The notes under the pieces were generated by a model. That model was not told the origin of the DNA. It searched no databases and saw only the letters and a list, made by a program, of their open reading frames with translations. Below are positions 3,885-59,008 of a stretch of 64,000 bases of DNA, piece by piece. Location: NCBI RefSeq assembly GCF_039555335.1, contig NC_092629.1:35031537-35095536 (forward strand). The letters run 5' to 3'. Within the stretch, counting starts at the first letter, position 1; every line of letters starts with the position of its first letter. The translations under genes were made by a program, and so were the position numbers. The DNA is from Amphiura filiformis. Lineage: Eukaryota > Echinodermata > Ophiuroidea > Amphilepidida > Amphiuridae.

Positions 3885-4500
3885 ATAGTGTAAAACAGAT
3901 GCACCAAATGGCTTCAATTGGACCTTCAAAATTTCCAAATTTCGGAGGGGGAACATCAGACACCCCCTGTCTATATAAACAACTGCCCGTTTTCGCTTCT
4001 GTTTATATTTCACACCCAGCACTCTGAATTTATACAATAACAGTGAAAAAAGGTGGCTTCAATTGCATATTGGCCTGTCATTTCACAAATTTTATATTTT
4101 CGGCTTTTTCAAACTCAAATTTTACACCATAATAGTGCCAAAATAGTCCACCAAATGGCTTCAATTAGGTTTTTATTTTGCAAATGTTTCTCATTTCTCA
4201 GGGGGCATCCCCTCAGACACCCCCCCCCCCCCCATGTCGCGCAATGTTATGGTACATAAAGCAATAATTTTACAAAAGAGGTCAAAACTTTCCATTGCAT
4301 GTCTTCATGTGAGCTGTTTTATTTTAAATTTTAGGCTTTTTCAAACTTAAATTTTACACAAGAATGTTAACAAAATGGTCCACCAAATGGCTTCAATTGG
4401 GTCTTCATTTTCCAAAAGTTTCTCACTTCTGAGGGGGCACATCCCCTCAGACACCTCTGCGTCGCGCAAGCGCTCTGAAATTTTTATTTTCAGGAGTGTG
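3885..4500. repeat. Three spaced copies of a short dispersed repeat
   Basis: CACCAAATGGCTTCAATTGG plus CTTCTGAGGGGGCA...CAGACACC occurs at about 3895-3975, 4130-4240 and 4370-4500. An inverted fourth copy lies at 27338-27430. The copies contain C or G runs of ten or more. Small open frames here are by-products. Confidence 0.7.
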
Positions 4501-9684: not shown

Positions 9685-9950
9685 AGTGGGCACGGTGGCT
9701 CAGTGGATACGGCCTTGGACTCATAATCTGAGAGCTTGCTCGACGTGCGTGGGTTCGAGTCCCCGTCCCGCCACCGTGTTGTGTCCTTGGGCAAGGCGCT
9801 TTGCCTCGCTTGCCTCACCCCACCCAGGTGCAATGGGAAGCTGTTAGGGGTAGTCACAGTCGTTGTACTGATGAACCCTGCGCCATTTGTAGGCTGCAAA
9901 CGTGGTTCCGATTATTCTAATGACGGCGGAATAAATGTAAAGCGCTTTAA
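9685..9950 (+). mobile_element. tRNA-derived SINE, 5' part
   Basis: A polymerase III box A (TGGCTCAGTGG, 9696-9706) and box B (GGTTCGAGTCC, 9752-9762) head the element. A conserved core beginning TGTCCTTGGGCAAGGCGCTT (9782-9801) follows, of the kind seen in several long-lived metazoan SINE families. The body runs to AATGTAAAGCGCTTT near 9947 and then stops; the matching tail is about 2.84 kb further on (12791-12835). No cloverleaf acceptor stem is evident, so it is not a working tRNA gene. Confidence 0.8.
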
Positions 9951-12790
9951 AGCACCAGTAATACATTGTAATGATATTAATGTTGCTGTTGATAATTTCC
10001 AATCAATTTTTGCAAATGTTTGTAACCATCATGCACCTATTACAAAGAAACGTGTAAGAGACAAGAAAGCACCATGGCTCACCGATGATATCATTAAGCT
10101 AATGCGTGAGCGAGATTGTCTGAAAAAGAAAGCTATTAAGACTGGACTAAGTAAAGATTGGTCTGACTTCAGATCAATGAAAAATAGGGTTAACTATGAA
10201 ATCAAGCATAGTAAAAAATCATATGTTGCTAATAGTATTCAAACAAATAGTAACAACACTAAGCAAGTGTGGAATACAATTAGACAGATTATTCCTGGTA
10301 AAAGTAAGGGTACCAGTATTACTTGTATTAAAGGAGAAAATGGTAATGAAACAGAACCAAAAGATATTGCAAATATTATGAATACATTCTTTGCCAATAT
10401 AGGTCCTGATCTTGCTGCTAAGATTCCAAACGCCTGTGCAGATGGGCAACTGGTCAATGAAAGGATGCCCCACTCAAGTGAGAGTTTTATGTTCCAGCCT
10501 GTTAGTCATCAATATGTCCTCAGCAAGTTACGATCGTTGCCGGAGGGAAAAGCTACAGGCACAGATGATCTTCCTTCTAAACTCATCAAAATGGCGGCTG
10601 CATCAATCGTTGAACCCATTGCCTATTTGATCAATTTATCTTTGGAAAGCGGGATTTTTCCTGATGCCTGGAAAAATGCCCGGATTTGTCCTATTTACAA
10701 AGGTGGTGACGCTACGGATCCAGGTAATTACAGACCCATCTCCATATTGCCTGTAATTTCCAAGGTTATTGAGAGAGCGGTGTTTGATCAAGTATACCCT
10801 TTCCTTAATACTAATGGTATGATTTATGATAAGCAGTCTGGTTTTAGACCCCAGCACTCCACTCTATCTGCCTTAATTAATATTACTGAGGACTGGTATG
10901 AAGCCATTGACAAAGGTAAATATGTTGGCCTTGTCATGATTGATTTAAAAAAGGCTTTCGATACGGTTAATCATGGAATATTACTCCAGAAGTTGAAAGC
11001 TTTTAATGTTCACGAGACAAGCATAAATTGGTTTAATAGTTATCTGACTGGAAGAAGTCATAACACTGTAATTAATGGTAATATGTCTGAGCCAGCAAAT
11101 AGTGTTTGTGTGGCATACCTCAAGGTTCCATTTTGGGACCAATGTTGTTCATTATGTATATCAATGATCTACCTCTTTGTACTTCACATGTTAATGTTAG
11201 TATGTACGCTGACGACACTGCATTGTATGCTGTTAGTAACAATATTGATGACTTAGTTGACATTATTAATAAAGACTTAGTAAATGTCAGTGATTGGCTT
11301 GCATGTAATAAATTAAGTTTAAATGTGTCGAAAACAGAATTCATGTTAATGGGGTCAAGACAACGTCTTGCTGTAGTCAAAGACCACGACATCAATGTCA
11401 ACATAAATGGTGTTAAACTTCGTCAGGTACACAACTGTAAACATCTTGGTGTCATTGTAGATGATAGTATGACCTGGCATGATCAGGTAAAAACATCAGG
11501 AAGAAAGTTCTTTCAGGTCTATACATGCTCAGAAAATGTAAGAATGTATTACCATCAGAAACAATGTCTCTCATTTTTAAAAGTGTTATTGCACCTCACA
11601 TAGACTACTGTGATGTAATATGGTCTACTTGTAATGTTAATGATATGGATATTGTTCAAAAACTCCAGAATAGAGCTGCCAAAATTATCACTGGCGCTAA
11701 ATGGTCTGATTCTAGTTCAAACGCACTGTCAGTTCTAGGTTGGGATTGTATTAAGCAAAGGTGTGATTATCATGATGTTGTTACAATGTTCAAAATTATG
11801 AATAACGACGCGGCACCCTATCTAAGTGATCGTTTTAATCTGAGAAATAATGAGAGATATAACCTTCGTGGCTATCGGGCGCTAAGCATTCCTAAACCTA
11901 ACACAAATTTTAAGAAGAGAAGTCTAAGTTACCGGGGTGCTGTGTCTTGGAATGCGCTAGATGACCATCTAAAAGCTGCCCGTAATGTTAAACATTTTAA
12001 ATACTGCTTTAACCATGTTGATAGTATTATATGAATGTTTTTTATTTATGTGTCATAGAAATTCAATCTTGACTTCTTGCTCCTGTACAATATGATGTTC
12101 CTTAAATGTGTATTAGTTTAGTGCAATTTGTAAAATCGCCTTAATTCTGAATTTGATGTAGACTTTTGTCAATGTGGTTTAATTTTCCTATATTGCTGGT
12201 GCTCTTCTTTTAATTAATATTTTTGTACATTATAATATAGCATAACCTATTTTATATTTAAAAACCGTGTCATTGTGTTATGGATGCATGCTTGTGGATT
12301 TAGGATGAAGGTGCGCTATGGGAGTAAGATGTGGGTGCAAGGGGTGTGTGGTTATGTGGGTGTGTGGTATTTATGGGTGTGCTGGAGTTATGGTGTACTT
12401 GGGGTGTGTATAGGCGTTTGTAGCGCGAGTGTGAACTTGGTGAATGTGTAAGTGGTATTCAGATATATCTGTTGCAATATAAGGTCTACAACTTTTATTT
12501 TATTGTGGTGATTATATTTATCTTCTTGCCTATTTTCTTAGATTTTGATGTCATACTGAAATGAGTTTTACTGGGTTTAAAAATTTAAAAAAATATTATA
12601 TGTTCTTATGCTTTCATAATTTTGTAATATACTGACTACTGTTTTAATAATGTTTTAATAATTGTACGTACTAATTTATAATTCTGTTACTTTAATGTGT
12701 ATATGCCACGGACATGTGGAAGAACAATGACTTTTATATTGAACATGTTTTACCGTGAATAAATAAAGATATTATTATTATTATTATTAT
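9951..12790 (+). mobile_element. 5'-truncated non-LTR retrotransposon (LINE), ORF2 reverse transcriptase remnant
   Basis: The coding remnant starts in the linker before the reverse transcriptase (no endonuclease domain). RT blocks follow in order: ATGTDDLPSKLIK, NYRPISILPVISKV, QSGFRPQHST, VMIDLKKAFDTV, GIPQGSILGP and YADDTALY. The C-terminal thumb/tail domain ends at a stop near 12034. The frame changes near 11105 and again near 11510, so the copy is dead. A 750-bp 3' UTR ends in AATAAATAAAG and an ATT repeat (about 12769-12790), the typical LINE 3' tail. The RT order and tail fit the Jockey/CR1-type clades; the clade is inferred. An apparent Met start at 9736 belongs to the SINE into which the element inserted, not to the LINE. 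Confidence 0.88.
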
Positions 12791-17422: not shown

Positions 17423-20400
17423 TCACGGACTATGATGACACCCATTCATGACTTTCCCACCAAAAAGTTTTAATATCAATGGCAAAATGATCAAACCATG
17501 CAATGCTCCGAAGGAAATGACGAGAAACATTGTCTTGAAGAAGGACCGGAAAATGTAGGACGTGCTAAAGGCAAGTACTATAATGCCTAGTATTGTAGAC
17601 ATCGCCCCTTGAGTGATAGGCCAACCGTGGGTATACAGAGCGTGAATCGTACGCTCCTCACTGCTTAGAGCAGGATCATGAGGGGCAATGGAAGTAGTTG
17701 AGTCTTTGCTCATCTGAGCAGAATCATAGGCCGTTGGCTTCATTCTGTTTGAAGCAGACACGTGGACAGCCGTGGGATTCGTTGGCTCCATGCTGCTTGG
17801 AGCAGACACAGTGGATGCCCAGGAATTCGTTGGTTCTATGCTGGTTTGAATTATGCTGAAGTTGTTTGTATGCTGAGCAGACCCATGGGTCACCACGGAA
17901 GAATCTGTCTCCGTGTTGTTTGGAGGACACCCATGGGTAGACGTATATGTCTCCGTGTTGTTTGGATGAGACGCAGGAGCTGCCATTGACATCGTTGGCT
18001 CTATGCTGATTTGAATCAGGGTGAATTTGTATGTAGGCCTATGCTGCGCAGAATCAGGGGTCGCCACGGAAGTATCTGGCTCCATATTGCTTTGGACAGA
18101 CCAATGGGTCGCATTAGAAATCGATGCCTCTGTGCTGTTTTGAACAGACCAAGGGGTCGCATTGGAAATCGCCGCCTCTGTGCTGCTTGGAGCAGACCAA
18201 GGGGTCGCATTGGAAATCGCCTCCTCTGTGCCTCTGTGCTGCTTGGAGCAGACCAAGGGGTCGCATTGGAAATCGCTGTCTCTGTGCTGTTTGGAGTAGG
18301 CACAGGGGCCGAAAAATAAGCAAGGATCATATGAGCTGAATAATCAACACTGAAACCAACGCAGAGAACAAGATTAACCATTGACACTGTGTCCAAATAA
18401 ACACCCCAGTAAGCCATGTAACCAATAACTCCTACAAGGATCGAAAGGATAGAGAAAAGAGCAAAGAACGCACCTTTAAAATTGGGCATCATTAGGAGAG
18501 TTACCAGAAACATAACAACGACAGCAAGCAACAGATTTCGGACTGTGTTGAAGACTACTACAGTGTACTGATCATAGAAAGTGAACGCTGGATGGTACGC
18601 AATTTGCGCGATCTCACGGGTGCCCACGATTTGCCGCGCTTCTGACATTGCCTTTTCTTCCAGTGTTGAGGAATCTACGTCCTTAAATGTTACATATGAT
18701 CGAGTGCTAATAATATCATTTGTTCTTGCGCGGAAAACAATATCAGGACCATAATGCTGAAACAACGGGAGAAATTTGTCTTTAAGGTTAGTTTTAAATT
18801 CAGTCTCATTTGGATTAGGAATACCAATATCGTCCAGGAATTTCAGATAGTCGCGAAGCCAAGAGATGGAGATATCGTCATCGTGGTAGAATTGGCTTCC
18901 TTCCAAGTCTTTCAAAGTTTCTTCAATCTTCATCTGAATATCCTTATCCCAGTACTGTGCTTCTTCGTTAATTGTTATCATAACAACAGGCCCATATTTG
19001 GTGAAGTACGTCGATTCCAATTTGTAGTACTGCTGTGCGTAAGAATGATCGGGTAACAGGTTTGATAACTGAAGCCCAGTTTCAAGTTTTTGAATTCCAA
19101 AGATCGCGCAAACCAAGTACACAGTATACAGCATCATTAGTATGGTGCTGATCTGCTCTTTCATAAGGAATGGGGCTACGTAGTCCCGAAAACACATCAT
19201 GGCTCGGTGATTTGTGAATTCTTCCATTGGCTCAACGTGGTGTGCTTGGTCATCATTGTTTTGTTGTCGTGCATTTATGCCAGATACTATAGCGGGTTGC
19301 GTCTTGTGCCCACCGTTCATCTCATACGTTTCATTGCGTTCATCAACCGTCGCCTGTTCGGGACGTATTTGCGAGGGTCCAGACATTTTCAAGAATGGAA
19401 TAATCCCATTGAGATGATGTTGTTCTCTAAGTCCATCAATGTACATGCACGCTCCGAAAAATGTAATCTGATAGGTGTAGGTGAATGCCACCGCGACACC
19501 CGTATAAATGCAGAAGATCTGCACTGATCTGAATGGGGTAATTGCACCGATACAGAAGGCGAGGACGTCTGTGACTGACGTGATGGTGATAGAAGTAGCT
19601 GCTTCTGAGAACGCCGTTTGAAGTCTGCCCTTTGCCTTGGCACGTACGTTGGTTTTGCGCCAGGCAGCTATCATGATGAACATGTCGTCCACGCCAATGC
19701 CTGAGCAAATTAAAACAGAAACGATATAATAATGATAAAATTAAAGAAAGGAGTCATTGGAGTACATGTGCATAGTGTATTAAAATGTTCAAGATTGCTT
19801 TGAGAAGAAACTGACTCAATTGATGGAAATACTGCACATATATCATTTTAAGCGCAGAAAGAATATAATTGGAACTTCTGCTTTCATGATTCTGCCAACA
19901 AAATTCTTTACACACATAGCATTAGGACAACGAGCACCACTGATACTACTCCATCACTAGAACTACGTAATAATTATATCTCTGAACTGAAATAGTCCGC
20001 CAAGACTAGAAGTGCCCTCGGCAGCCCGCCAATAACGATATAGTCCTGACGTTTCTGCCGTTTCGCTTTTCCGTAGCGATTTTGGGTTGACCTTATGTTC
20101 TTTCATCTCAAATAGTTTGTTCGGAGCTTTGTCTGTAGCTACTTTACAGATGCTGGGGAAGATGCTACGAAAAATTACCCGTTGCGGCAAAATACTTGCA
20201 AGACGTCGGACAATATAGTAGCTCTACCGTACGCAGGTAACAATTTGCATGGTAGAGAAGGAGAACAAATCCCGGGACAAAGCTAGAATCATTTTAGCGG
20301 AAACCGAGAACCAAAGCTCGCAACGGATAACCAAAAAGCGCTGTGAAGAGCCAAGAGCACAACGTCTTTCGTGTCTGTTGCATCAGAAAGATGGCCGGAA

Positions 20401-22940
20401 AAACACCGAACTATAATATATAGTTAAAAGTCAAAATAATATACTCGGACTTCTTGCGGGCGTTTTGATGTTGCGACAGAAGCAAGTGGTTCATTTTCCG
20501 TAGCATCCTCCGCAGCTGATGCAATTTCCAGCAGCGTCTATCATTGCGGAAGACGTTAATAAGACAAACAAAGCTGTCAAAAGCAAAGCTGATTATTGAA
20601 CGGAAACAACCGCGAAAGGTCGCAGCGGGCAACTGACAATCGTGGCGGACAACGAAAACGAGACGTCGGACGCAACGGATAAACGCCTGCAAAAACGTCT
20701 GACTATATTTTGGCCTTATTCGGTTATCTATTGCGACGCAATGATACATTTTAGCTGCTGGGGAAGACGCTCCGAGTAAAACGGCCGCAAGACTTCCGAC
20801 TATATTTGGACATTTCAGACCACTAGTCCGACGTCTTGACTCTCGTGGGGGGTTTGTAATTTCCACAGACGCAGCGGCTAATTTTCCGTAGCGTCTGACG
20901 CAGAGGCTGACGTTTTCCGTAGCGTCTTCCACTTCAAAAGAGATATTAACAAGAGATTTATTTCAATCTAGTCAACCTTTATAAGCAAAACAAAACTCCG
21001 AACAAAGGTGATCATTTGAGCGGAAAGAACCGAATGTCGCAATGGACAACGAAATATCGCTGTGGAGAACGCAACACGACTCGTCTGACGCACCGGAAAG
21101 ACGTTTGCAAAAACATTGGACTATATATCATGATAGTGGCCATTCGGCTATGGACCAATGACGAGAAACCGAGATTGGTGTTCGATTTGGGTCGGCGCAC
21201 TGCCGAAGGTATGCATATACCTAAATAAATTTGACACTTTAGTTATGAAAGCAAAATCAAATTGATTCAACAAACCCTTGACATTTTGGAATGTCTTCTG
21301 GTCGATTTGATTATGGCAATGAGCATAATTTTTGATAATTTTTGATTAATAGATGCCTTAGTGGCAATTGAGATTGGATTAAGAATTTCCTTTTCTTGAC
21401 CCAAATGTTGACATTAAAATTGTGACCTTCTACAACGAAACGAGTATAAAGTCGTCATGGTGAACGGCCCATTGTTCCCCCATTCACACAGGACATACAG
21501 ACAATCTTCTGACTTGAACAGGGGCATGTGAACCAAAGAACACCAACGCAGTAGCCAGGGCGTTTCGAAACTACCAACTTGCTGTCACGAAATGAGTCGC
21601 AAGTTGGTAGTTTAGAAAAGCCCTAGCTACTGCGTTGGTGTTCTGTGGTTCACATGCACCTGTCCAAGCCAGAAGTATGTATGTATGTCCTTTGTTTGGA
21701 GGGGTCTTCTTTCCTTGATCTTTATTATCTGTTCCCTTCTTTTCTCAAGTTCCATATTGGCCAGCATGCTTATAATTATATAGACTTTTTAGCCTGACTT
21801 GAACATTGATTTTGTCGGTGAGCCTGGTCCCATCAGGACCCAATCGTGTCTCCACACAGTGTGACAATTTAAACAACCAAACACCCCCATACACACCCAC
21901 ATATACAACCAACAAACACTCCAAAGAAAGAAACAAACACACCTACCTAATATTAGAAACGGCATGGAGCCAACTTCATTGATGAATGGAACTCCACACA
22001 AACTCATCAGTCCAAACGATGACATAATGGCGAGACCAGCGGATATAACGCCTAATCCACCCAACCAGGTCTTGGTCCTCAACATATCGATCGTCATGCA
22101 CGAAGTAATGGAAAAAGATATCAAAACGGTGAACGTTATGACGAATGACGTCACGATGGACGATGTTGCTTTGTTTAACTCTTGTTCTAAGGTATGTGAT
22201 GTTCTCCTGAAAATGCTCGCGTTTGATGATGACGTAAACTTCTCAACGCGACGAAGAAACTCGTTCTCCCACTTCTTTCCAAGAACTTCTTCTTCGCTAG
22301 TATCGTATCGTAAGTTATATGTTAACTGGAGAGCTCTTGCTTCTTTAATAACATCACTGTTGGGGTAGAAAGTCACTCCTCCTAGTTCATTACCGATGAA
22401 AGTTTTCATGGGTAAATTCACATACGGGTAAGTTATGTTTAAGACATGGATCGTGCTTGCGTTATAGTTAATGGCATCAAGAATCCCATTTGAATGACAT
22501 TCATTTTGCCATATCATACACAAGTCTTGGTAGGTATAGGAGTCACCTGATACCGGGATTGAAATGTTTAGAATGTAATCGTGTAACCGTAATGCATCTT
22601 CCAAGATCGCGAAAGATAAAACATTGCCTGACTCTTCCGGTACTACCAATACCTGTCCGTACGGTCCGAGGCGCGTACGTTGATACTGAAGTGTGTTATT
22701 GTCTCCGTAATCGGCATAGAGTTCTTCGATGATCTTGCGGTCTTTCAGAGATGGTGCATTCCGTGGAACGTAAAGTTTCTCTATATCTGATTCGAATGAA
22801 ATGAACACCAAGCCTGATGCGCCAAGAGCGACAGAAATGATGACCGGTAGCAGCAGAAACAAGAACGTTGTTACCCAGTTCTTTGCGATGGCACCAGCAA
22901 GTTTCTTGAATAATATTTGAAATCTGACGAAAACAGCTTT
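17423..22940 (-). CDS. Patched-domain (PTCHD-like) RND-superfamily membrane protein; 5' exon missing, frame broken by an 8-bp duplication
   Basis: Two exons are visible on the minus strand: 22940-21947 (acceptor TTTTTCAAACAG, donor G|GTAGGT) and 19700-17423 (acceptor TTTGCTCAG), joined in phase to read PFLILGIGVDDMF. Seen: TM1, a large extracellular loop with Asn-X-Ser/Thr sites, then a sterol-sensing-type TM2-TM6 block with the IGVDD motif in TM4. A cytosolic linker, TM7 and a second extracellular loop follow, then TM8-TM10 with GFSVDYSAH, a ~190-residue Ser/Thr-rich insertion and the last TM pair (HGWPITQGAMSTILGI onward). Patched-related proteins move sterols or other lipids and ions across membranes; the substrate here is unknown. 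As given, an 8-bp duplication at 18223-18238 shifts the frame and would remove the last helices; without those 8 bases the two exons have integral length. The first coding exon was not located. An in-frame ATG at 23009 is an alternative start but lies behind a convincing acceptor. Confidence 0.88.
17700..18295 (-). repeat. 48-bp coding minisatellite inside the PTCHD-like gene
   Basis: Near-perfect 48-bp units lie at about 18080-18290, and increasingly diverged units continue to about 17700. Each unit encodes 16 residues of the type SNATPWS...STEA. In the protein this falls between TM10 and TM11, a loop expected to be cytosolic in RND topology, so the Asn-Ala-Thr sequons would not be glycosylated there. 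One unit contains CCTCTGTG twice in tandem (18223-18238), the frame-breaking change described for the gene. Confidence 0.85.
19701..21946 (-). other. PTCHD-like gene intron, repeat-filled
   Basis: The intron sits between the two PTCHD exons. About 19995-21210 is unusually GC-rich for the window and holds diverged copies of short motifs, including TTTTCCGTAGCG and its complement, GCTGGGGAAGA and GACTATAT. Two longer blocks (about 20150-20225 and 20752-20810) resemble each other, which suggests a decayed repeat or foldback element. An open frame over 20411-20932 has no recognisable domain and is not supported as a gene. A hairpin at 21517-21665 is listed separately. Confidence 0.6.
21517..21665. 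repeat. Palindromic hairpin element, ~68-bp arms
   Basis: The left arm (from ACTTGAACAGGGGCATGTGA) and right arm (ending TCACATGCACCTGTCCAAG) are near-complementary over about 68 bases, with a loop of about 13 bases around TGTCACGAAATGA. It lies in the PTCHD intron. It resembles a MITE or a hairpin RNA precursor; the sequence does not distinguish these. Confidence 0.75.
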
Positions 22941-25264
22941 CTGTTTGAAAAACAAAGAAAGAAAACAGACATGATAAGTTGTTTTGTAAAAATAAATTGA
23001 AGAATCCAAATGTTACGTGGTCCTATAAAATATACAATCAAATTCTAATGGTTTACTCATGCTGGAAAACTTTTGGATATACCGAGAATCTTATCAATTT
23101 TTTACAGTGCCAATTATAAAGAAATAAAGAATAACATCGATGCCTTGATTTCTCGAGCCTGGTGACGCGAGTTTTGGCATCAGAAGAAAGCTACTGTTTT
23201 TTTCTCGAAATCAAAACAATTATGCCTAAGATATGAATGTTTCCTATTATGGTATGAGGAAAAACGTGCGGGCAGTCTCGCCCACTAAGGTGCTAAATAC
23301 CGAAAAAATGTCCAGGTATGCTCGTGGAGCAATGTGTGTTGACGATTGCTCAATTAATCGCTATGCTGTGCTTTTCCTCGGGAAAATGCAATATACTGTT
23401 TTTGTTCACGCAAGTGAATGTTAATGCCAATTGCACCCACATCTCATATGCACAGTTTATCCCTTACATAATACCCTTAGACTATCCCACAGTCCATCTC
23501 TGTGGGTAAATAATTAGAGCTAAAACCACCTTCTCCTTCACTCCAAAGATGAAAACAACACACCACTAAGCCCTAATGATAAATGACAACAAAGTTATAG
23601 AGCACTGTCGACGAAAACTCAATTAATCTACAGACGAACTTGTTTATTTTTTTTATAATAGCTCTCCTAAACCCAGACTGTTCCGCTTTGATTTTAAACT
23701 CCCTTCCAAATAATTATCAAGGTATGTAACGTGACTGTGGCGTCAATTATGATAGCCCGCCTCATTGTCAATTCAAATATGGTAGGCACATAACATGCAT
23801 GACCCAGTAATTGTCATTTTGCGCGCGCGTTTGTTATGATCAATAGACTATCAATGAAAACCTATTTCAAATAATCGCCTTGCTTGCTGAAATCTACATT
23901 GATTGGTCAGGCTAAGTAGCCGCTTACACAAACGCCCGCACAAACGGCAAGACATTGAGACCACGGACGTGATATATAGAAAACTCGTCTGACCCAGGAT
24001 CGGTAAAAGTGAACTCCCAAAAATGCTGGGAGCTGGAAGGCAACTTGCCTACACATTGGAAGGGTCCATGTATCGGGTTTATTTAATGTTCTATAATCTA
24101 CATTACCAGTCGTTCTCCGTGGACCCGAGGGAGGGTCTAATATACCCCGTGTCTTTAATAGCTATTGTAACCCACCAGCCCTGTAGTTAAGAGGCTAGGA
24201 AATAATTTCTAATATTTCATACCCTCGTTTGTAAGCTTTTGTATGCCTTGATCTAATCCTGCTCCCCATGACAAGGACTATAGGCCTATAGCCCTTGCAG
24301 TGAGACTGTTCAGTGTAGGAAATTTTTAGCCTTTTTTATTAAACATGTTTGCAATTGGCTTATAGCTGTCACATGTTAAGTGGAGGAAACCCCACTGGAT
24401 ATTTTAGCTGTGTAGCACGGGGTTCTATGTCGGCTTTATGTCAAAATTTCCCTGGTGACCTGCAAACACAACAAATTTGGCTGAATTCATTTAGGTGTAA
24501 GTTGGGACATGTGTAAACGTTACAATACAAATACGGTATTTCAAAACATCAGGTTCGAAAAAAAAATTATCAATTTTATATTATACGATCGTAGGGCATA
24601 CGTTATGGGTTTTTTTAATCCTTTAAAGAAAAAGCAATTTTTACATATCAATTTGTAAGCGCTCTTTTTTAAAAGTCATAGTTCATTGAATTTACGACCT
24701 GTATGACAAACAGGCGAAAATAGTAACTTTTTCCACAAGATTTGCATTGCAATTTAAAGAGAATTAACCATTGCTCATTCTAGTGACTCTAGTATATGGA
24801 CAATATAAGTGTGCTTTTTCATTTAATGACATAAAAATATTGTAAGGAACACTTGAGGTTTTGACTTTTAAAACCTACATTTTGGTCAAATTGGCCCATT
24901 TTTTAGGTAGAAGCTTCACAGATCTTACATTGCTATGCACTCAACTGTGTAGTGTAATCAAAGACTGTGGTGGAGATATTCGCTGCTTGATGTTCTCTGC
25001 TTGGAAGCTCTTGGGACGAAAATGTGTGTTCAGGTGTATCGAGGTGGAAACTGTGCGCATGATGGTTTTTTAAGAGAATCGTTTTTGTATAGAAACCTTT
25101 CCATATGAAATGCTTAAAAGCATTTTAATGTCATTTTGCAAGCGATAAATAATAGGCTAATGAAAAAATATTGCAGGTGTTGCTTTTATATTTTTTTTGG
25201 ATCAATTCTAGTAACTTTGGGTTATATTCAATGTTACTCAATCATGACAACACTGAAAATATTA
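22941..25264. other. Region upstream of the PTCHD-like exons
   Basis: This should contain the missing 5' exon(s) and promoter of the minus-strand PTCHD-like gene. I could not identify either with confidence. The only repeat recognised is at 24370-24520. Confidence 0.4.
24370..24520. repeat. Dispersed repeat, matching 14690-14910
   Basis: It contains AACCCCACTGGATATTTTAG, ACACAACAAATTTGG and AAGTTGGGACATGTGTAAA in the same order as the copy near 14.7 kb. Confidence 0.6.
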
Positions 25265-25580
25265 ATAAGGCATAAAAAGTAGAGAAAAGAGACGTTCACT
25301 GAAGACTGCCCCGTGTTTTCTGTTGACAAGGGACAGTCTTCAGTGAACGGCTCTTTTCAGAGCCACCAAACCTTTAAAATTAGCAGATAGGCGAGGTATG
25401 CTTGTTTTCGGTTGACAAAGGGATAGTCTTCAGTGAACGGCTCTTTTCTGAGCCACCAAACCTTTAAATTAGCAGATAGGCGAGGTCTGCTTGTTTTCTG
25501 TTTACAAGGGGCAGTCTTCAGTGAACGGCTCTTTTCAGAGCCACCAAACCTTTAAATTTAGCAGATAAGCGAGATCTGCG
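25265..25580 (+). repeat. Three ~90-bp tandem repeats each carrying a histone-type 3' stem-loop
   Basis: Stem-loops lie at 25349-25364, 25439-25454 and 25527-25542. Copies 1 and 3 read GGCTCTTTTCAGAGCCACCA, the canonical 6-bp stem, 4-base loop and ACCA of replication-dependent histone mRNAs. Copy 2 has one change that shortens the stem. Each is preceded by CAGTCTTCAGTGAAC and followed by AACCTTTAAA(T/A)TTAGCAGAT. An inverted piece of the unit (GTTCACTGAAGACTGCCCC) begins the block near 25293. I see no histone reading frame beside it and no CAAGAAAGA downstream element. Confidence 0.85.
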
Positions 25581-25789
25581 AAGTATCCTCGCAGAATGTT
25601 GTTAAATACTGACTTGCAAATTAAAGGTATGTTACAATATTTAAACATTTATGGGTCCACTTTCAAATTCTCAGCGGCACGTCCCTACCAAAATCAAACT
25701 TGAGTACCCCCCGATTGGGTTACATTTTCATGAAATTGTGTTCTCAGATCAGGTGTATCGAGGTGGAAACTATGCATAGATGGTTATGA

Positions 25790-25975
25790 TAAAGATAATG
25801 AACTGAGTCATATGAGTGCAATGCATTAGTCAAGATAATCGCACACACCGTGGAATTATTGCATTTAGCTCGAGAGCCGATAGGCTCGAGAGCTAAATGC
25901 AATAACTCCATGGCAAGTGCGATTATCTTGACGAATGCATTTGCACGAGTACATTATCCGTCATATACTTTGAGT
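25790..25975. mobile_element. Palindromic MITE, ~85-bp arms with a tight loop
   Basis: The central part GCATTTAGCTCGAGAGCC, GATA, GGCTCGAGAGCTAAATGC is a perfect hairpin. Pairing continues outward through GATAATCGCAC and AATGCATT on both sides with few mismatches. Confidence 0.8.
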
Positions 25976-27985
25976 GTATTAAAACAGTAGGCAATATTAA
26001 TTGCTGCATTCATTAGTTTGAATATTAGGGAAAATATCTTAAATTTTAAAAACACCGTCAGGCCATTGACCAGGTAGCATTTAACTGGTCAAGAAAATCA
26101 ATCACTGTATAAGTTAGCTATCAATGGTATCGATTGCGCCATACGTCATACTTTACATGGTTTGTAACCAAATGACTTTATGTTGTGATCATTTAATATC
26201 GTGGTTCCGAACACAGAGAGCACTGAACCAGTTGACCTGGAAACGATCGATTTTGACGTCCCACTGGAATAAACTTATATATCAATATCAACTGGACTTT
26301 ATAGTTCTATAATTTGAACTTGTAAAATCTACTTAAATATTAAAACACACCACTCAAAAATCGTAAGTCCAGTTGACTAGATTATAGTTCAAATATCATT
26401 ACACGACAGTGGAATTTTACAATTTGTACAGTATTATAAAGCATGATCATGATATTATGCGCTAAGTGTGTGTTTCCCGGGCGTGTTTATGTTATTTTAG
26501 ATATAGGCCTACATGTATTTCATTTGTAAAATGCTGAATATTTTGTAATGGTGTCATCTTGTATAATTATGGTCCACCTGTTTTTAGCCCTTTTTAATTA
26601 ACAAAAGCTCGATTATTCTCATTTGATGTTTGATTTATTTGAGTTAATTAATCATAATTTATGGCAATGGTAGTTGCAAAATAGAACACAGTTTGTAACC
26701 TATGTGCGCATGAAAAAATACCATAACCTATAATTATTTTAACACCACAGAATGTATATTCGGATTTTTTTGATGGTATAATATCGAACAGACAAGTTAT
26801 ATAGTTATGTGAAAGTAGTATTTCTAGTATTTGAGCGTGCACGTATTATCTAAAATCTATTGTTTAGCGTGCAGGTTTTAGATAATGCATTGTTTAGCGT
26901 GCAGGTTTATATAATTTGAGCCAGGCGGCGGATGACATGATCGAGCCGGCAACTCGTGAAACCGCCCGGCCGTATGGCATTTTCCATATACTCGGTTAGT
27001 TTTGTGGGGTTCATTATCGAACCCCAACGGTTTTAGCTTGTATTTATATTATTTATCAACATAGGCCTATTTGTTTGTGATATTTCAAGCGTTTTAAAAT
27101 TTCAAAATAATCCCATTCAATTACACGGTTGACGATGAAAATTTACTGAATTTAGGGAATGCACGTCATACACCACCTGATTTGAGCTATGAAGGGTAGT
27201 TCGCGAAAATAATGCACGGGAGAAGAATACATAACGATGAATAGAAACGGGCACTAGAAGTATATTATAAGAGAATCGTTTTTGTAGCCAAACCTTTCCA
27301 TATGCTTCTGACAGGGGGCTACTGTGTGTGAGAAAGGATGTTCCCCCTCAGAAGTGAAAAACTTTTGCAAACTGAAGGCCCAATTGATTTGGTGGACCAT
27401 TTTGGCACTATTACTGTGCACAATTTGAGCTTCAAAAATCCGGAAATGGTCCGTCTTCAGGCATATCTAACTAGTGTCCTAGCAAAAATATTTCACAGAA
27501 AAATTATGTACAACATAATTATGTTCATTCGTTCTTCACAAAATACGCCTACATCCTTTCAAAAAATCTACAAAATACAGATAAAATTTTGTTTCCTACC
27601 TTGCTGCACCATATCTTCCAGGGTCTATGACTGCCAGATGCTTGGGCTTCGTCGTCTGTCCAGAAAGTATTCACCACTCCCTGGTCCGTCATATTGAAAT
27701 GTGTTTCCTTGATCCAATGGTAATTAAAAACACTTGTGAGCGTTGAAAATTAAATTATGCTTTTCTTTTCTGGAAAACATAAGATTAATGAAGCAAACGT
27801 ATTTTCGTCGTTGGGTGTGTGGTAAAAGCAACATTTACAGCAGGCATGCGCAGTCATTCCTGAAACCATTGGAAACCATTTTTGTACTTTGCCCCTTTCC
27901 CCAAACATGCATGCTGAATTTATAATGTTATTTCCCGAGTTTAATCGTCAAATGGATCAACATTTTAAATAGAGGTTAAAATTAT
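25976..27985. other. Gene-free stretch
   Basis: Other than the inverted repeat copy at 27338-27430, I see AT-rich sequence. Two short direct repeats of TTGTTTAGCGTGCAGGTTT lie near 26860 and 26890. Confidence 0.45.
27338..27430 (-). repeat. Inverted copy of the 3885-4500 repeat
   Basis: CCCCCTCAGAAGTGAAAAAC and CCAATTGATTTGGTGGACCA match the complement of the copies near 4 kb. A 119-codon open frame starting here is not supported as a gene. Confidence 0.6.
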
Positions 27986-27988
27986 GGT

Positions 27989-28040
<52 letters not shown>

Positions 28041-28195
28041 CCAATCAATCAATCAAACAACCGGTATATCAACCAATCAATCACCCTATCAAGCAAGCAA
28101 TCAGTCAATCAATCGCCCATCCGATCGATCGATCATCAATCAATCAATTAATTAATCAATCAATCAAACAAGCACTTCAATCAAACAATAAATTT
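27986..28195. repeat. (AATC)n microsatellite with variant units
   Basis: A perfect AATC run begins near 27990 and decays through variant four-base units (AAGC, GATC, AATT) to about 28195. Confidence 0.92.
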
Positions 28196-28552
28196 TGACA
28201 ATAATAATAGTTTGTATACGGTTGCTGCAAGGAAAATCCTATATCTGTGTAACATTATTAAGTTTTCCTCTCACAAAATAAAGATCACTGAATTATGTAG
28301 TAAAAGCAAATCTCACAGACAATTTACAAAAAAAAAAAAAAATATATATATATATAGCATATTAGCAGACTTCGGTGCACATATTCAAATTAACTGAGCT
28401 GGAAAAATTTAGCAATGACCCATCGCAAATTGTGAAAAGGAGAAAAACAAATGTATTAATTAATTGCAATTAGATTTAGACGCAACAGGCATGCGGACAA
28501 TAGAAAACAGTGTTGATCATAATTGGAATGCAGCATTGTTCATCAATTTGAA

Positions 28553-28821
28553 GAGTGACCACTATTAGGTGGCCACTATCGAAACTCAATATAGGCTCAA
28601 TTAGGTGATCACTATCGAAACTCAATATAGGCTCAATTAGGTGACCACTATCGAAACTCAATATAGGCTCAATTAGGTGACCACTATCGAAACTCAATAT
28701 AGGCTCAATTAGGTGACCACTATCGAAACTCAATATAGGCTCAATTAGGTGACCACTATCGAAACTCAATATAGGCTCAATTAGGTGACCACTATCGAAA
28801 CTCAATATAGGCTCAATTAAC
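28553..28821. repeat. 36-bp minisatellite, about 7 copies
   Basis: Units of the form AATTAGGTGACCACTATCGA plus 16 further bases repeat head to tail with few changes. A minus-strand open frame of 117 codons is produced by the period (12 codons per unit) and has no support as a gene. There are no spacers, so it is not a CRISPR array. Confidence 0.93.
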
Positions 28822-29240
28822 CCTGACACGACTGAGTATACTACAAAATACTACTTGATATAGACGAATCCAACGAGCCAAGTCATGGTCAGGATTTGGT
28901 CGGCCATGACGGGTCCCCGCATGCACCAAACTGGTGTAGTGACTGCCCAATTGGGTGAATTAAAACCGCTTAAAATTCGATGTATACTAGATTCTTTTGT
29001 GTTGTACACTGTCATTATTCTTTTGTCTACCTGTAACACAGGTGATAGAATGCAGTTTAAAATACCCTCCAAGGCCGCATCATTTCACATTTTAGGTGAG
29101 ATGGAGCCGACGGGGACCCAACTTTGGCAGCCATTGAGGTGTAGGAATGCGTGAAATTGGATTCGTATGTGGTGTGATGATGCAATCGCCCTAAGTGATA
29201 TATAGGCACGGTTTCGCTGGCCAGCGACGCCCAAGACCCG

Positions 29241-29480
29241 TGGCAAAGTGTCGCCGACCCAGTGCTTGTCATGCGAGGGGTCTCGGGTTCGAATTCCACC
29301 CAGAGTAACCAACTTCTTTCTTTGTTTTCTCTCTTTATTCCTTCCTTCTTTCCCTTCCCGTCGCCAAAAATCCCCTGATGGGTTAGGGTTAAGCCATGTT
29401 CAGATGGGCTGGAAATTAAAGGTGTGAGACTCTCGGGGCCGATAGCCCGAGTGTAAAACTCCAAGTGCGTCCATATAGGA
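29241..29480 (+). mobile_element. tRNA-headed SINE copy
   Basis: A box A-like TGGCAAAGTG (29241-29250) and a box B GGTTCGAATTCC (29286-29297) are spaced as in tRNA-derived SINE heads. A non-tRNA body runs to about 29480. The sequence upstream (about 29200-29240, GGCCAGCGACGCCCAAGACC) may be part of the head. It is a different family from the SINE at 9685. Confidence 0.55.
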
Positions 29481-29550
29481 AGTTGTGCCACAATTTCTAA
29501 AACAAAAATATATGAAAAAATATAGAATATGAAAAAATATGATGGGCTAT

Positions 29551-29741
29551 TTCAGTTGAATCCATACACCTCATGACCTTAATCTTCCATACAGGGAAAT
29601 TGAATCAAGTTTCAAGTTCAAGTTCAATTTCAAATGAGGTTATACCTGAATGGGTGACTCCATTTGATATCTGACCCCCGTCTGGTCCCGATTAAGGTCA
29701 TGTCTTCTATATGGGATGTATGGATTTCAACTGGTATATCC
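29551..29741. mobile_element. MITE-like inverted repeat
   Basis: CAGTTGAATCCATACA...CATGACCTTAAT on the left is matched inverted by ATTAAGGTCATG...TGTATGGATTTCAACTG on the right, with a ~100-base centre. Confidence 0.65.
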
Positions 29742-29769
29742 CAATCATGGTACTGGTGAATACCAGGAT

Positions 29770-30165
29770 CAGGACACAATTAACTGGGTCCCGGGGGAGG
29801 GTAAAATTAGAGCTAATTAGGAAGGGGGCAAGAAATGTTTGGCGAGCTGAAGGAGGGGGGGAAGCAAATTTTGGCAAGCCGAGAGGGGGAAAGTGATTTT
29901 TGGCAAACATTCATGGGGCCTTTTAAATAAAACGCTTTGAAAAGGCTTAGGAAAACAGTACGGAAACCTTAAATATGCAAATTTCCCTACTCGCTGCGCT
30001 CGCAACATGTAGACCGTTTGCAAATTGGGATCCCAAAAATTAGGCATGTGCAAGGGGGTGGCAAAGATTTTTTGGCAGGCCGAGAAGGGGGTGGGAAACA
30101 AGCGATATTCATAACAGCCGGTCAGAAACTTTACCCCCCGGCTCATAATTATTGCACAGCCCCTA
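29770..30165. repeat. G-rich degenerate repeat units
   Basis: TTTTGGCA(A/G)GCCGAGAGGGGG-like units recur three to four times (about 29835, 29870, 30070). Open frames are artefacts of the G-runs. Confidence 0.5.
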
Positions 30166-30784
30166 ACTCAAAACCTCTAAACGTCATCAAAAAAAGGGAG
30201 TTGTGGGGAAATGGCGAATTATTACAAGCCTTGCTTTGTTTTCAACTTGCAACGATATATAGGCATATAGACCTACGTGCAATGTTAATAAAATAAAAAG
30301 AAATAGCAATTTATTATTTACTTGTCCAAATTCTATCCGGAAGTTCTTACTGATATTTATGTTCAAGTATTAAAACATACCTGCATGAATGTATGTACGA
30401 TTGGGGGAAATCCCCACATTTTCATAGTTCATATAAATAAACAGGTTTATCTCTTGATAGATTAGATGTTCATCTGCGTACTTCATCTATCTTCACATTG
30501 CGAATGGTAGTACCAGCATGACCAGGGTGAGTTTATGTTAATAACTAACTGTTTTTTTTCTGAAAATTTTCGGGGGAAATCCCTCGTTTGTGAAACAATT
30601 TGATTTAGTGGTGATACTTTAGAAAACGGAGTAATATCACCATCAGTTTAGAATTTCATGCAAACCAGTCTTGGTGTTGGTGGGGTGGGTGGGGTGGGAG
30701 TTAGAACGCTTAACCCAGGTATGCAGAAAATGATATCTTCCTTATAGCATTCAGGAGCACAGCTTTTCTATTTTCGTTTTTTAC
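30166..30784. other. Gene-free stretch
   Basis: The sequence is AT-rich. A short GGGTGGGGTGGG run lies near 30680. No supported feature. Confidence 0.45.
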
Positions 30785-31365
30785 TAGACGTATACAGGGC
30801 GTTAGTCCGAATCTGAAATGCACTGCACCAGTCCGACACGCCGCTAGTCCGAATCTAAAATACACTCTGTCAGTCCGACACGCCGCTAGTCCGAAAATAA
30901 AAACCACTGCGTTTGTCCGAAATTGAAAACCACTGCGCTAGTCCGAATCTGGAAAACACTCCTTCAGTCCGACACTGCGCTAGTCCGAATCTAAAAAAAC
31001 ACTGCGCTAGTCCGGAACTGACAACCATGACGCTAGTCCGAATTTGAAAAACACTGCGCTAGTCCGAATTTGAATGGGGGAAACACTGCGCTAGTCTGAT
31101 ATTCGGACTATATAGCGCAGTGTTTTTCCGATTCGGACTAGCGCTGTAGTTTTCAGTTTCGGACTAGCGCCATAGTTTTCAGTTTCGGGTATAGCGCAGT
31201 GTCGGACTAAAGAAGTGTTTTCCAAATTCGGACTAGCGCAGTGTATTTTGGATTCGGACTAGCGGCGTGTCGGACTGTTGCAGTGGTTTTCATTTTCGGA
31301 CTAGTGCATGCTTTTTTCGGACTAGCGCCGTGCTTTTCATTTTCGGACTGACGCACCTCAAGTAT
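30785..31365. mobile_element. Foldback element made of short TAGTCCGAA units
   Basis: The left half is an array of ~22-27-base units reading GCTAGTCCGAA with A-rich spacers and CACTGC; the right half is the same array inverted (TTCGGACTAGCGC). The switch lies near 31100. Foldback elements whose inverted repeats are themselves tandem arrays are known in echinoderms (TU elements) and flies (FB). Assignment to that type is inferred from architecture. Confidence 0.75.
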
Positions 31366-34025: not shown

Positions 34026-35860
34026 TATTCATATTCATATTCATATTCATATTTTATTTCCATAAAAATCAAAGACATTACATAAAAATATATATAAACA
34101 CGGTACATATGGAGGAAAAGGCTGGAAGACCAAAAAGGTCTGAAAGTTAGCCTTTCCCTGAAATCAAATGAAATTAACAAAATAAATCAACATCACATAA
34201 CATAACCAAAAGACAAGTGTGGGGGGTGCTCACGGAAAAGATTAATTATATTTAGAGATCAGTTTTGTTTTGAATTGATTACGGAAATGTTTGACAGAAT
34301 TTGATGCTTTCAGATTTTTATCTAAAGAATTCCAAAGAATGGGACCTCTTGTACGTATAGCATGATCAGAAAAGACTTTCTTATTTTTGGTTAGATTTAG
34401 GTCATTTACATATATCGTGTCTTGTAGTTATGTATGTCAGAACGTTTGGTAAAATAATAGTCAAATGAGCAGGGCAGCTCATTTATAGAGTGCCTGTACA
34501 TGAATGTCCCTAATTCTAGTGTGTACATATCTTCAGTTTTTAATATGTTATAATTAGCAAACAATGGCGGTGTGTGGTCTCTATAGTGAACGTTTGCCAC
34601 CGTTCTAATAGCCCATTTTTGAATTTTTACAATTTTATTTAAGTAAGTTTTACATGTATTTCCCCATAAAAGTACTCCATAATTCAAATAAGGCAATATT
34701 AACGTACAATAAAGTGTAAATAAAATACGACTTGGAACAAAATGTTTCAATTTATTCATGACACCAACATTTCTTGAAATTGTTCTAGATACGCAATCTA
34801 TGTGACATTTCCAGGTAAGACATTCGTCTATTAGTACACCAAGGAATTTAGTTTGATGCACTCTTTCTAAAGCCGTGTGATCTAGTGTGATTTGTAGGTC
34901 TTGATTCATCGATGTCATTTTGGGTGTGCCAAGTATCATGTAATTTGTTTTGGTAGCATTAATTGACAATTTATTAGCTTTAAACCAATTGCTTACTTCC
35001 TTTAACTCTTCATTAACAAGGTTTGTCTGGCGTTCTATGTTTTTATGGGAGTATAAAATGGTGGTATCGTCTGCAAAAAGGACGAATTCGAGTACTTTAG
35101 ATGCATTAGTTATATCATTAACATAGAGTATAAATAGAAGTGGCCCCAGGATTGATCCTTGCGGAACACCACATATAATATCGTGTGATTCTGATTCATA
35201 AGCTAGAATTATAATAAACATATTGTTTTCTGTTACTTAGATAATTTCTGAACCATTCTAACACAATACCACGAAAGCCATAGTGTTCTAATTTATGTAA
35301 GAGTATGTTATGATCGATTGTATCAAAGGCTTTTGATAAGTCCAGAAATATTCCAATAGTCGTTTCGTTTCTTTCAACTGCTGCAGTAACTTTGTCTACC
35401 ATTTGCTCTATAGCCATAAAGGTGGAATGTTTTGACCGAAAGCCAAATTGTTTGGGGTTAAGGATTCGCTTATTGTCAATGTAATCCGTACATCTGTTAA
35501 AAACCAGCCTTTCAAGAATTTTTGAAAAACACGGTAGGAGAGAAACTGGACGATAGTTTGAGAATGCATCATCATCATCTTTTTTGTATAATGGTATGAC
35601 TTTTGCTATTTTTAATTTATCAGGAACAATCCCAGTAGATATAGACAAATTAAATATCATATTAAGAGGTTTGGCAATTTCATTACACACTTTTTTAATG
35701 ATTAGATTGCCAATATTGTCATGGCCTCCACCTTTGTTTATGTCGAATTTATCAATTATTTTTACAATATCGGATTCAACAATAGGCTTCATATACATAT
35801 TACTGGTCTTGCTCTCACTGAGATAAGCGAAATATTGCTTTCCTGTGTTTTGGATCTTTA
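34026..35860 (-). mobile_element. 5'-truncated LINE, reverse transcriptase remnant
   Basis: On the minus strand, 35798-35196 encodes the first RT half (NYRPVSLLPCFSKIL, FRSKHST, GIFLDLSKAFDTID) and 35221-34406 the second half (GVPQGSILGPLLF, FADDTTILY, then the thumb/tail domain). The two halves are in different frames and overlap by a few codons, so there is one frameshift near 35210. The coding similarity starts near 35845. The 3' UTR ends in AATAAA-like sequence and a TATGAA repeat at 34026-34053, a LINE-type tail. No endonuclease is present. It belongs to the same family as the fragment at 61370-62612. Confidence 0.88.

Positions 35861-47843: not shown

Positions 47844-59008
<11,165 letters not shown>

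Follow-up and report, generated by a model that had tools for sequence, protein, structure and literature searches.

Three tandem copies of a histone-type 3' stem-loop away from any core histone frame: a probable relic of a histone gene 3' end

Histone sequence is found outside histone clusters in the form of orphons and pseudogenes, dispersed pieces of histone genes known from sea urchins. Replication-dependent histone mRNAs are described in a passage of PMC10388802 as the sole known metazoan mRNAs without poly(A) tails, and the same passage gives the needs of the stem-loop-binding protein SLBP as a stem-loop with two A before it and one A after it. Short tandem arrays, in turn, can be parts of mobile elements. 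For example, in the oyster, 8,224 of 14,591 arrays hold two or three monomers, the most abundant class, and in the main clusters the arrays form part of HINE elements (PMC7492417). Mobile elements may also carry histone sequence, as in a Culex Helentron, present in eight copies, in which parts of genes for histone H4 and the linker histone (H15) occur; its authors state that they are aware of no other case, and DINE-1-like elements are reported from sea urchin (PMC4067079).

In the 64-kb window analysed here (the whole stretch of DNA, positions 1 to 64,000), three tandem units of 88–90 bp lie on the + strand at 25314–25580. Each unit consists of about 35 bases, a stem-loop, ACCA, 12–14 A/T-rich bases and a second hairpin of 6–7 pairs, and an inverted partial copy of the unit precedes the array. 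The initial annotation had proposed three tandem units with the histone stem-loop, which is borne out by the single array that TRF detects at the site (25314–25573, period 89, 2.9 copies, 91% matches) and by the 19-mer GGCTCTTTTCAGAGCCACC, present on the + strand at 25349 (0 mismatches), 25439 (1) and 25527 (0). The span it had proposed, 25265–25580, is correct as regards the array, but 25265–25313 is not a tandem unit and instead holds the inverted partial copy; 25284–25580 are better bounds. Neither this copy nor the second hairpin (AGCAGAT ... GTCTGCT, beginning 16–18 nt past the stem-loop) had been noticed before. The features of the array are as follows, the three units being delimited by TRF, unit alignment and profile search.

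25284–25316, − strand: incomplete copy of the unit in inverted orientation, limited to its 5' half (complementarity, profile match)
25314–25402, + strand: tandem unit 1
25349–25367, + strand: histone stem-loop 1 with ACC, perfect (RF00032, 34.3 bits)
From 25382, + strand: counterpart of the second hairpin in unit 1, broken (−2.0 kcal/mol)
25403–25491, + strand: tandem unit 2
25439–25457, + strand: histone stem-loop 2, in which an A to T change opens the loop-closing pair and leaves a 5-bp stem (RF00032, 24.4 bits)
25471–25491, + strand: second hairpin, intact in unit 2 (−7.8 kcal/mol)
25492–25580, + strand: tandem unit 3
25527–25545, + strand: histone stem-loop 3 with ACC, perfect (RF00032, 33.6 bits)
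25561–25579, + strand: second hairpin, intact in unit 3 (−7.0 kcal/mol)
25575–25595, + strand: short palindrome at the right array edge, where unit likeness ends (fold/palindrome analysis)

The stem-loops have the defining traits of the Rfam family RF00032 (Histone3), namely a 6-bp stem, a 4-nt loop and the conserved sequence, these being perfect in two of the three copies while the remaining one has a 5-bp stem. The family matched at 25344–25390 with 34.3 bits against a gathering cut-off of 34, the sole match in the window at or above its gathering score among 4227 Rfam families; one of the three copies passes this cut-off, the third falling narrowly below it (33.6) and the middle one at 24.4. 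In the Rfam alignment, the likeness to histone 3' ends extends beyond the hairpin to the AA upstream and the ACC downstream. Two perfect stem-loops with flanking ACCA had been described earlier; there are indeed two perfect stem-loops, but ACCA is not limited to these and follows all three. Four Rfam microRNA matches were far below their cut-offs (33.5 against 80, 33.1 against 68, 27.5 against 70 and 19.6 against 90), and a microRNA reading of the foldback was rejected, as were SNORD97 (18.8 against 45) and rli40 (12.6 against 100).

Elsewhere in the 64-kb window, GGCTCTTTTCAGAGCCACC is absent at up to 3 mismatches. Its three matches compare with 0.02 expected, at least three being reached by none of 100 shuffles, and under a looser stem-loop rule the two perfect copies are the sole + strand matches in the window, the − strand having no match. 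A hairpin that resembled the histone stem-loop by chance and was then amplified in tandem would leave only a single match to explain, since the tandem copies are one event. However, base composition predicts about 1.4e-7 exact 19-mers in 64 kb and, at the composition of the window, about 0.002 exact 19-mers and 1e-5 exact 23-mers per 1 Gb, and we consider such a coincidence extremely improbable. In a prokaryote collection of 257 Gb, the exact 19-mer occurs twice (L001 and L002) against 1.9 expected, which is the chance rate, so the motif is not common there; viral contigs contained no exact match, and a viral source was rejected. As the 19-mer is far beyond chance, common descent of the unit with a histone 3' end is likely on the strength of its sequence. 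Among the open-licence papers listed, none was found to describe histone stem-loops arranged in tandem away from histone genes; one of them, PMC7026596, gives the stem-loop as RNA letters, and none of those listed for the sequence gives it as DNA letters.

The absence of a nearby histone frame, also claimed in the initial annotation, holds for the core histones across the whole 64-kb window, in which tblastn with H2A, H2B, H3 and H4 gave a best E of 1.0, a search that short fragments could escape. As a control, full-length H4 was inserted after half of its residues had been replaced at random, and it was recovered in 10 of 10 trials. The unit itself was rejected as coding sequence, all six frames over 25284–25583 containing at least three stops (3 to 7). 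The array lies upstream of Patched-type frames, between these and a ketoacyl-synthase frame, in surroundings that look like an animal genome with introns:

9727–11256 and 34406–35236: reverse transcriptase frames
18016–19740 and 21789–23012, − strand: frames with Patched and sterol-sensing domains
48843–50420, + strand: ketoacyl-synthase frame of the polyketide-synthase kind

A long frame at 53318–59008 looks like the remainder of the polyketide synthase. ARAGORN reported one tRNA-like site, tRNA-Met-like, at 9689–9775, overlapping the start of a reverse transcriptase frame and perhaps a tRNA-derived element. Between the Patched-type frames lies a palindrome of about 210 bp (21486–21695, 84%). 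The window reaches 25 kb on one side of the array and 38 kb on the other, and a histone cluster starting beyond it could have the array as an outlying part. Set against this are the position of the array between the Patched and ketoacyl-synthase frames and the failure of the search to find any of the four core histones in the window, and we regard an outlying cluster as very improbable.

The three units differ from one another, with 84 of 90, 82 of 89 and 80 of 90 columns identical in the pairwise comparisons, and the amplification is therefore not fresh. Eleven of the 90 unit columns are variable, one of them within the 23-nt stem-loop stretch. Variable columns are fewer in a block around the stem-loop (1 of 43) than outside it (10 of 47; Fisher p 0.006, the block having been picked post hoc); once permutation allows for any such block, p becomes 0.044 (linear) or 0.079 (circular), and for the 23-nt stem-loop stretch by itself it is 0.17. 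This is a hint that constraint or gene conversion, rather than pure drift, has acted on the core. A profile search of the 64-kb window, run at full sensitivity, recovered the three units and the inverted part and nothing else of note, the next matches having E of 2.2 and 6.7, and unit likeness does not continue into the flanks over 283 bases to the left or 301 bases from 25580.

The inverted partial copy is complementary to unit 3 over 33 nt (94%) and to unit 1 (91%), with a profile match at 25322–25284 (E 4.4e-7). Its unit likeness ends at the last base of the loop, and it thus contains half a stem-loop; together with unit 1 it forms a 75-nt near-palindrome with 33-nt arms and a 9-nt spacer. 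For 25284–25402, a fold of −54.2 kcal/mol is predicted (z −7.75), in which the inverted arm pairs with unit 1 and, with unit 1 alone present, would open stem-loop 1. Folding of the whole + strand predicts a different pairing, in which the arm joins unit 3 and occupies the 5' half of stem-loop 3; this stem-loop would be opened, and stem-loop 1 and the five-pair stem-loop 2 would be retained.

Downstream of each stem-loop, the left half of the second hairpin forms a stretch rich in purines (in every unit, 12 of 15 bases) that starts 16–17 nt past the stem, presumably about where a histone downstream element would lie. Six U7-type purine motifs were looked for and none was found within about 80 nt after any copy, although the U7 of the host may itself differ. 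These features bear on whether the array is a working element, either a + strand non-coding RNA that ends without poly(A) after a stem-loop or a sponge for SLBP with several stem-loops. Two of the stem-loops are perfect, the purine-rich stretch recurs 16–17 nt past each stem, and the core is less variable than the rest of the unit, a weak point in favour. In addition, the AA before and the A after resemble the minimal SLBP site as given in the passage of PMC10388802 cited above, which by its sequence is nearly matched here, a C intervening between the AA and the stem. Against this, none of the six U7-type motifs follows any copy, one stem-loop is damaged by a single change that opens a pair, and the inverted arm is predicted to compete with stem-loop 3 in the whole-strand fold or with stem-loop 1 if unit 1 alone is present. 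We therefore consider a working element unlikely, and the locus a weak candidate as a functional SLBP site. A decoy RNA had been among the readings first proposed; it has little in its favour apart from the hairpins, of which the middle one is damaged and the third is opened in the predicted fold. On a further reading, the histone 3'-end signal would have been co-opted by a family of repeats in an animal genome, whose RNAs would depend on SLBP and lack poly(A) at their ends during S phase or in oocytes; the present site would be one short array of that family. We think this very improbable.

The repeats that flank the array bear on the main alternative to a relic, a dispersed mobile element with the unit as its monomer. 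Such an element, either a non-autonomous Helentron/HINE or a foldback element, would have captured a histone 3' end and spread it as short arrays. A histone gene fragment would perhaps have been captured too, and the stem-loop would be either a passenger or a hairpin used by the element. The abundance in oyster of arrays with two or three monomers, with main clusters within HINE (PMC7492417), agrees with this, as do the histone gene fragments of the Culex Helentron and the DINE-1-like elements of sea urchin (PMC4067079). At the locus itself, the palindrome at the array edge, the inverted partial copy and the palindromic stretches nearby (25816–25946 and 30799–31354) point the same way. The HINE criterion applied was the presence of subterminal inverted repeats of 11–13 bp in both flanks, together with a 3' palindrome. 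The palindrome at 25575–25595 lies at the array edge and would correspond to a 3' palindrome only if an element ended there. An 11-nt inverted pair with one mismatch, at 25108 and 25640, is comparable in length to a HINE subterminal repeat, but is at shuffle level: between the 383 bases to the left and the 421 to the right, the longest inverted matches are 8, 11 and 14 nt at 0, 1 and 2 mismatches, and at least these lengths arose in 56, 44 and 25 of 60 shuffles, respectively. An element that extends beyond these flanks could escape the comparison. Above the shuffles there is a single bracketing repeat, which is direct:

25030–25056, + strand: 27-nt direct repeat, left copy (0 of 60 shuffles)
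25749–25775, + strand: 27-nt direct repeat, right copy, 96% identical (0 of 60 shuffles)

The surroundings of this repeat recur in the window merely in pieces; for example, 25068–25107, beside the left copy, recurs at 27265–27304. Near the array edges, no exact target-site duplication longer than 7 nt was found. Within 20000–31000, TRF places the nearest microsatellite at 27990, not beside the array, and the unit and the array have no second copy in the 64 kb. A mobile element that borrowed the stem-loop as a signal had been suggested earlier; the window gives no clear sign of one, with no other copy of the unit and flanking inverted repeats at shuffle level, and we consider a mobile origin possible, though less likely than a relic.

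Several other repeats occur in the window. About 240 bp to the right of the array, the near-palindrome at 25816–25946 (about 130 bp, with 59-nt arms, a 4-nt loop and 86% complementarity) is like a small foldback element, and 30799–31354 as a whole is the inverted repeat of itself (595 aligned positions, 71%) with tandem repeats inside. At 28564–28819, a 36-bp unit is repeated seven times with 98% matches, probably a young minisatellite. The sequence TAGGCCTA occurs 21 times in the window (1–64000), against 0.8 expected by base composition, and copies of another repeat at 4096–4220 and 4328–4454 have a counterpart in the opposite direction at 27324–27447 (77–78% identity).

Taken together, the observation is real and unusual in form, and its origin is probably that of a relic. 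We infer that the array is what is left of a histone gene 3' end that was amplified, partly folded back and is now decaying, and put the probability of this reading at roughly one in two. It is favoured by the 19-mer far beyond chance, the extension of the likeness into AA and ACC, the occurrence of the motif in prokaryotes at no more than the chance rate and the lack of a recognised core histone frame in the 64 kb, and also by the divergence of the units, the damage to the stem-loop of unit 2 and to the second hairpin of unit 1, and the failure to find any of the six U7-type motifs after the copies. It is weakened by the low variation of the core, by the purine-rich stretch and by the occurrence of short tandem units in some mobile elements as well. 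The initial annotation offered three readings, and the one that agrees best with these data is a histone 3' UTR surviving as a tandem relic, descent from a parent histone gene being presumed from likeness. Under the relic reading, a fragment of roughly 90 bp from the 3' end region of a replication-dependent histone gene would have been copied between unrelated genes without recognisable coding sequence, and would then have been amplified in tandem to three units via slippage or unequal exchange. A partial inverted copy may afterwards have arisen through a template switch, or when a DNA hairpin opened at the stem-loop, and the array, presumably without function, would now be drifting, damage having reached one stem-loop and one second hairpin out of three each.

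Were it transcribed, an array of stem-loops such as this, lying away from histone genes, might compete for SLBP or confer the same kind of end on other RNAs. Otherwise it would show how fragments of histone genes become dispersed and degrade, and would be a caution that stem-loop searches can pick up sites without a histone gene.

Compared with described systems, the locus shares with the replication-dependent histone 3' end (RF00032) the stem GGCTCT, the loop TTTC, the stem AGAGCC, the AA shortly before and the ACCA after, but differs in that no core histone frame was found, the copies are three in tandem and no U7-type motif was recognised. With HINE elements that have central repeats (oyster Cg_HINE, PMC7492417; DINE-1, PMC4067079), it shares a short tandem array and perhaps the palindrome at one edge; it differs in its monomer of 89 bp, against mostly 140–180 bp in oyster HINE (PMC7492417), and in that inverted repeats in the flanks compared do not exceed shuffle level, that no microsatellite adjoins the array and that the window has no second copy. 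Like histone orphons and pseudogenes, it is, within the view of the window, histone-like sequence outside a histone cluster, whereas here it is the 3' end alone that is present, in tandem and accompanied by an inverted partial copy.
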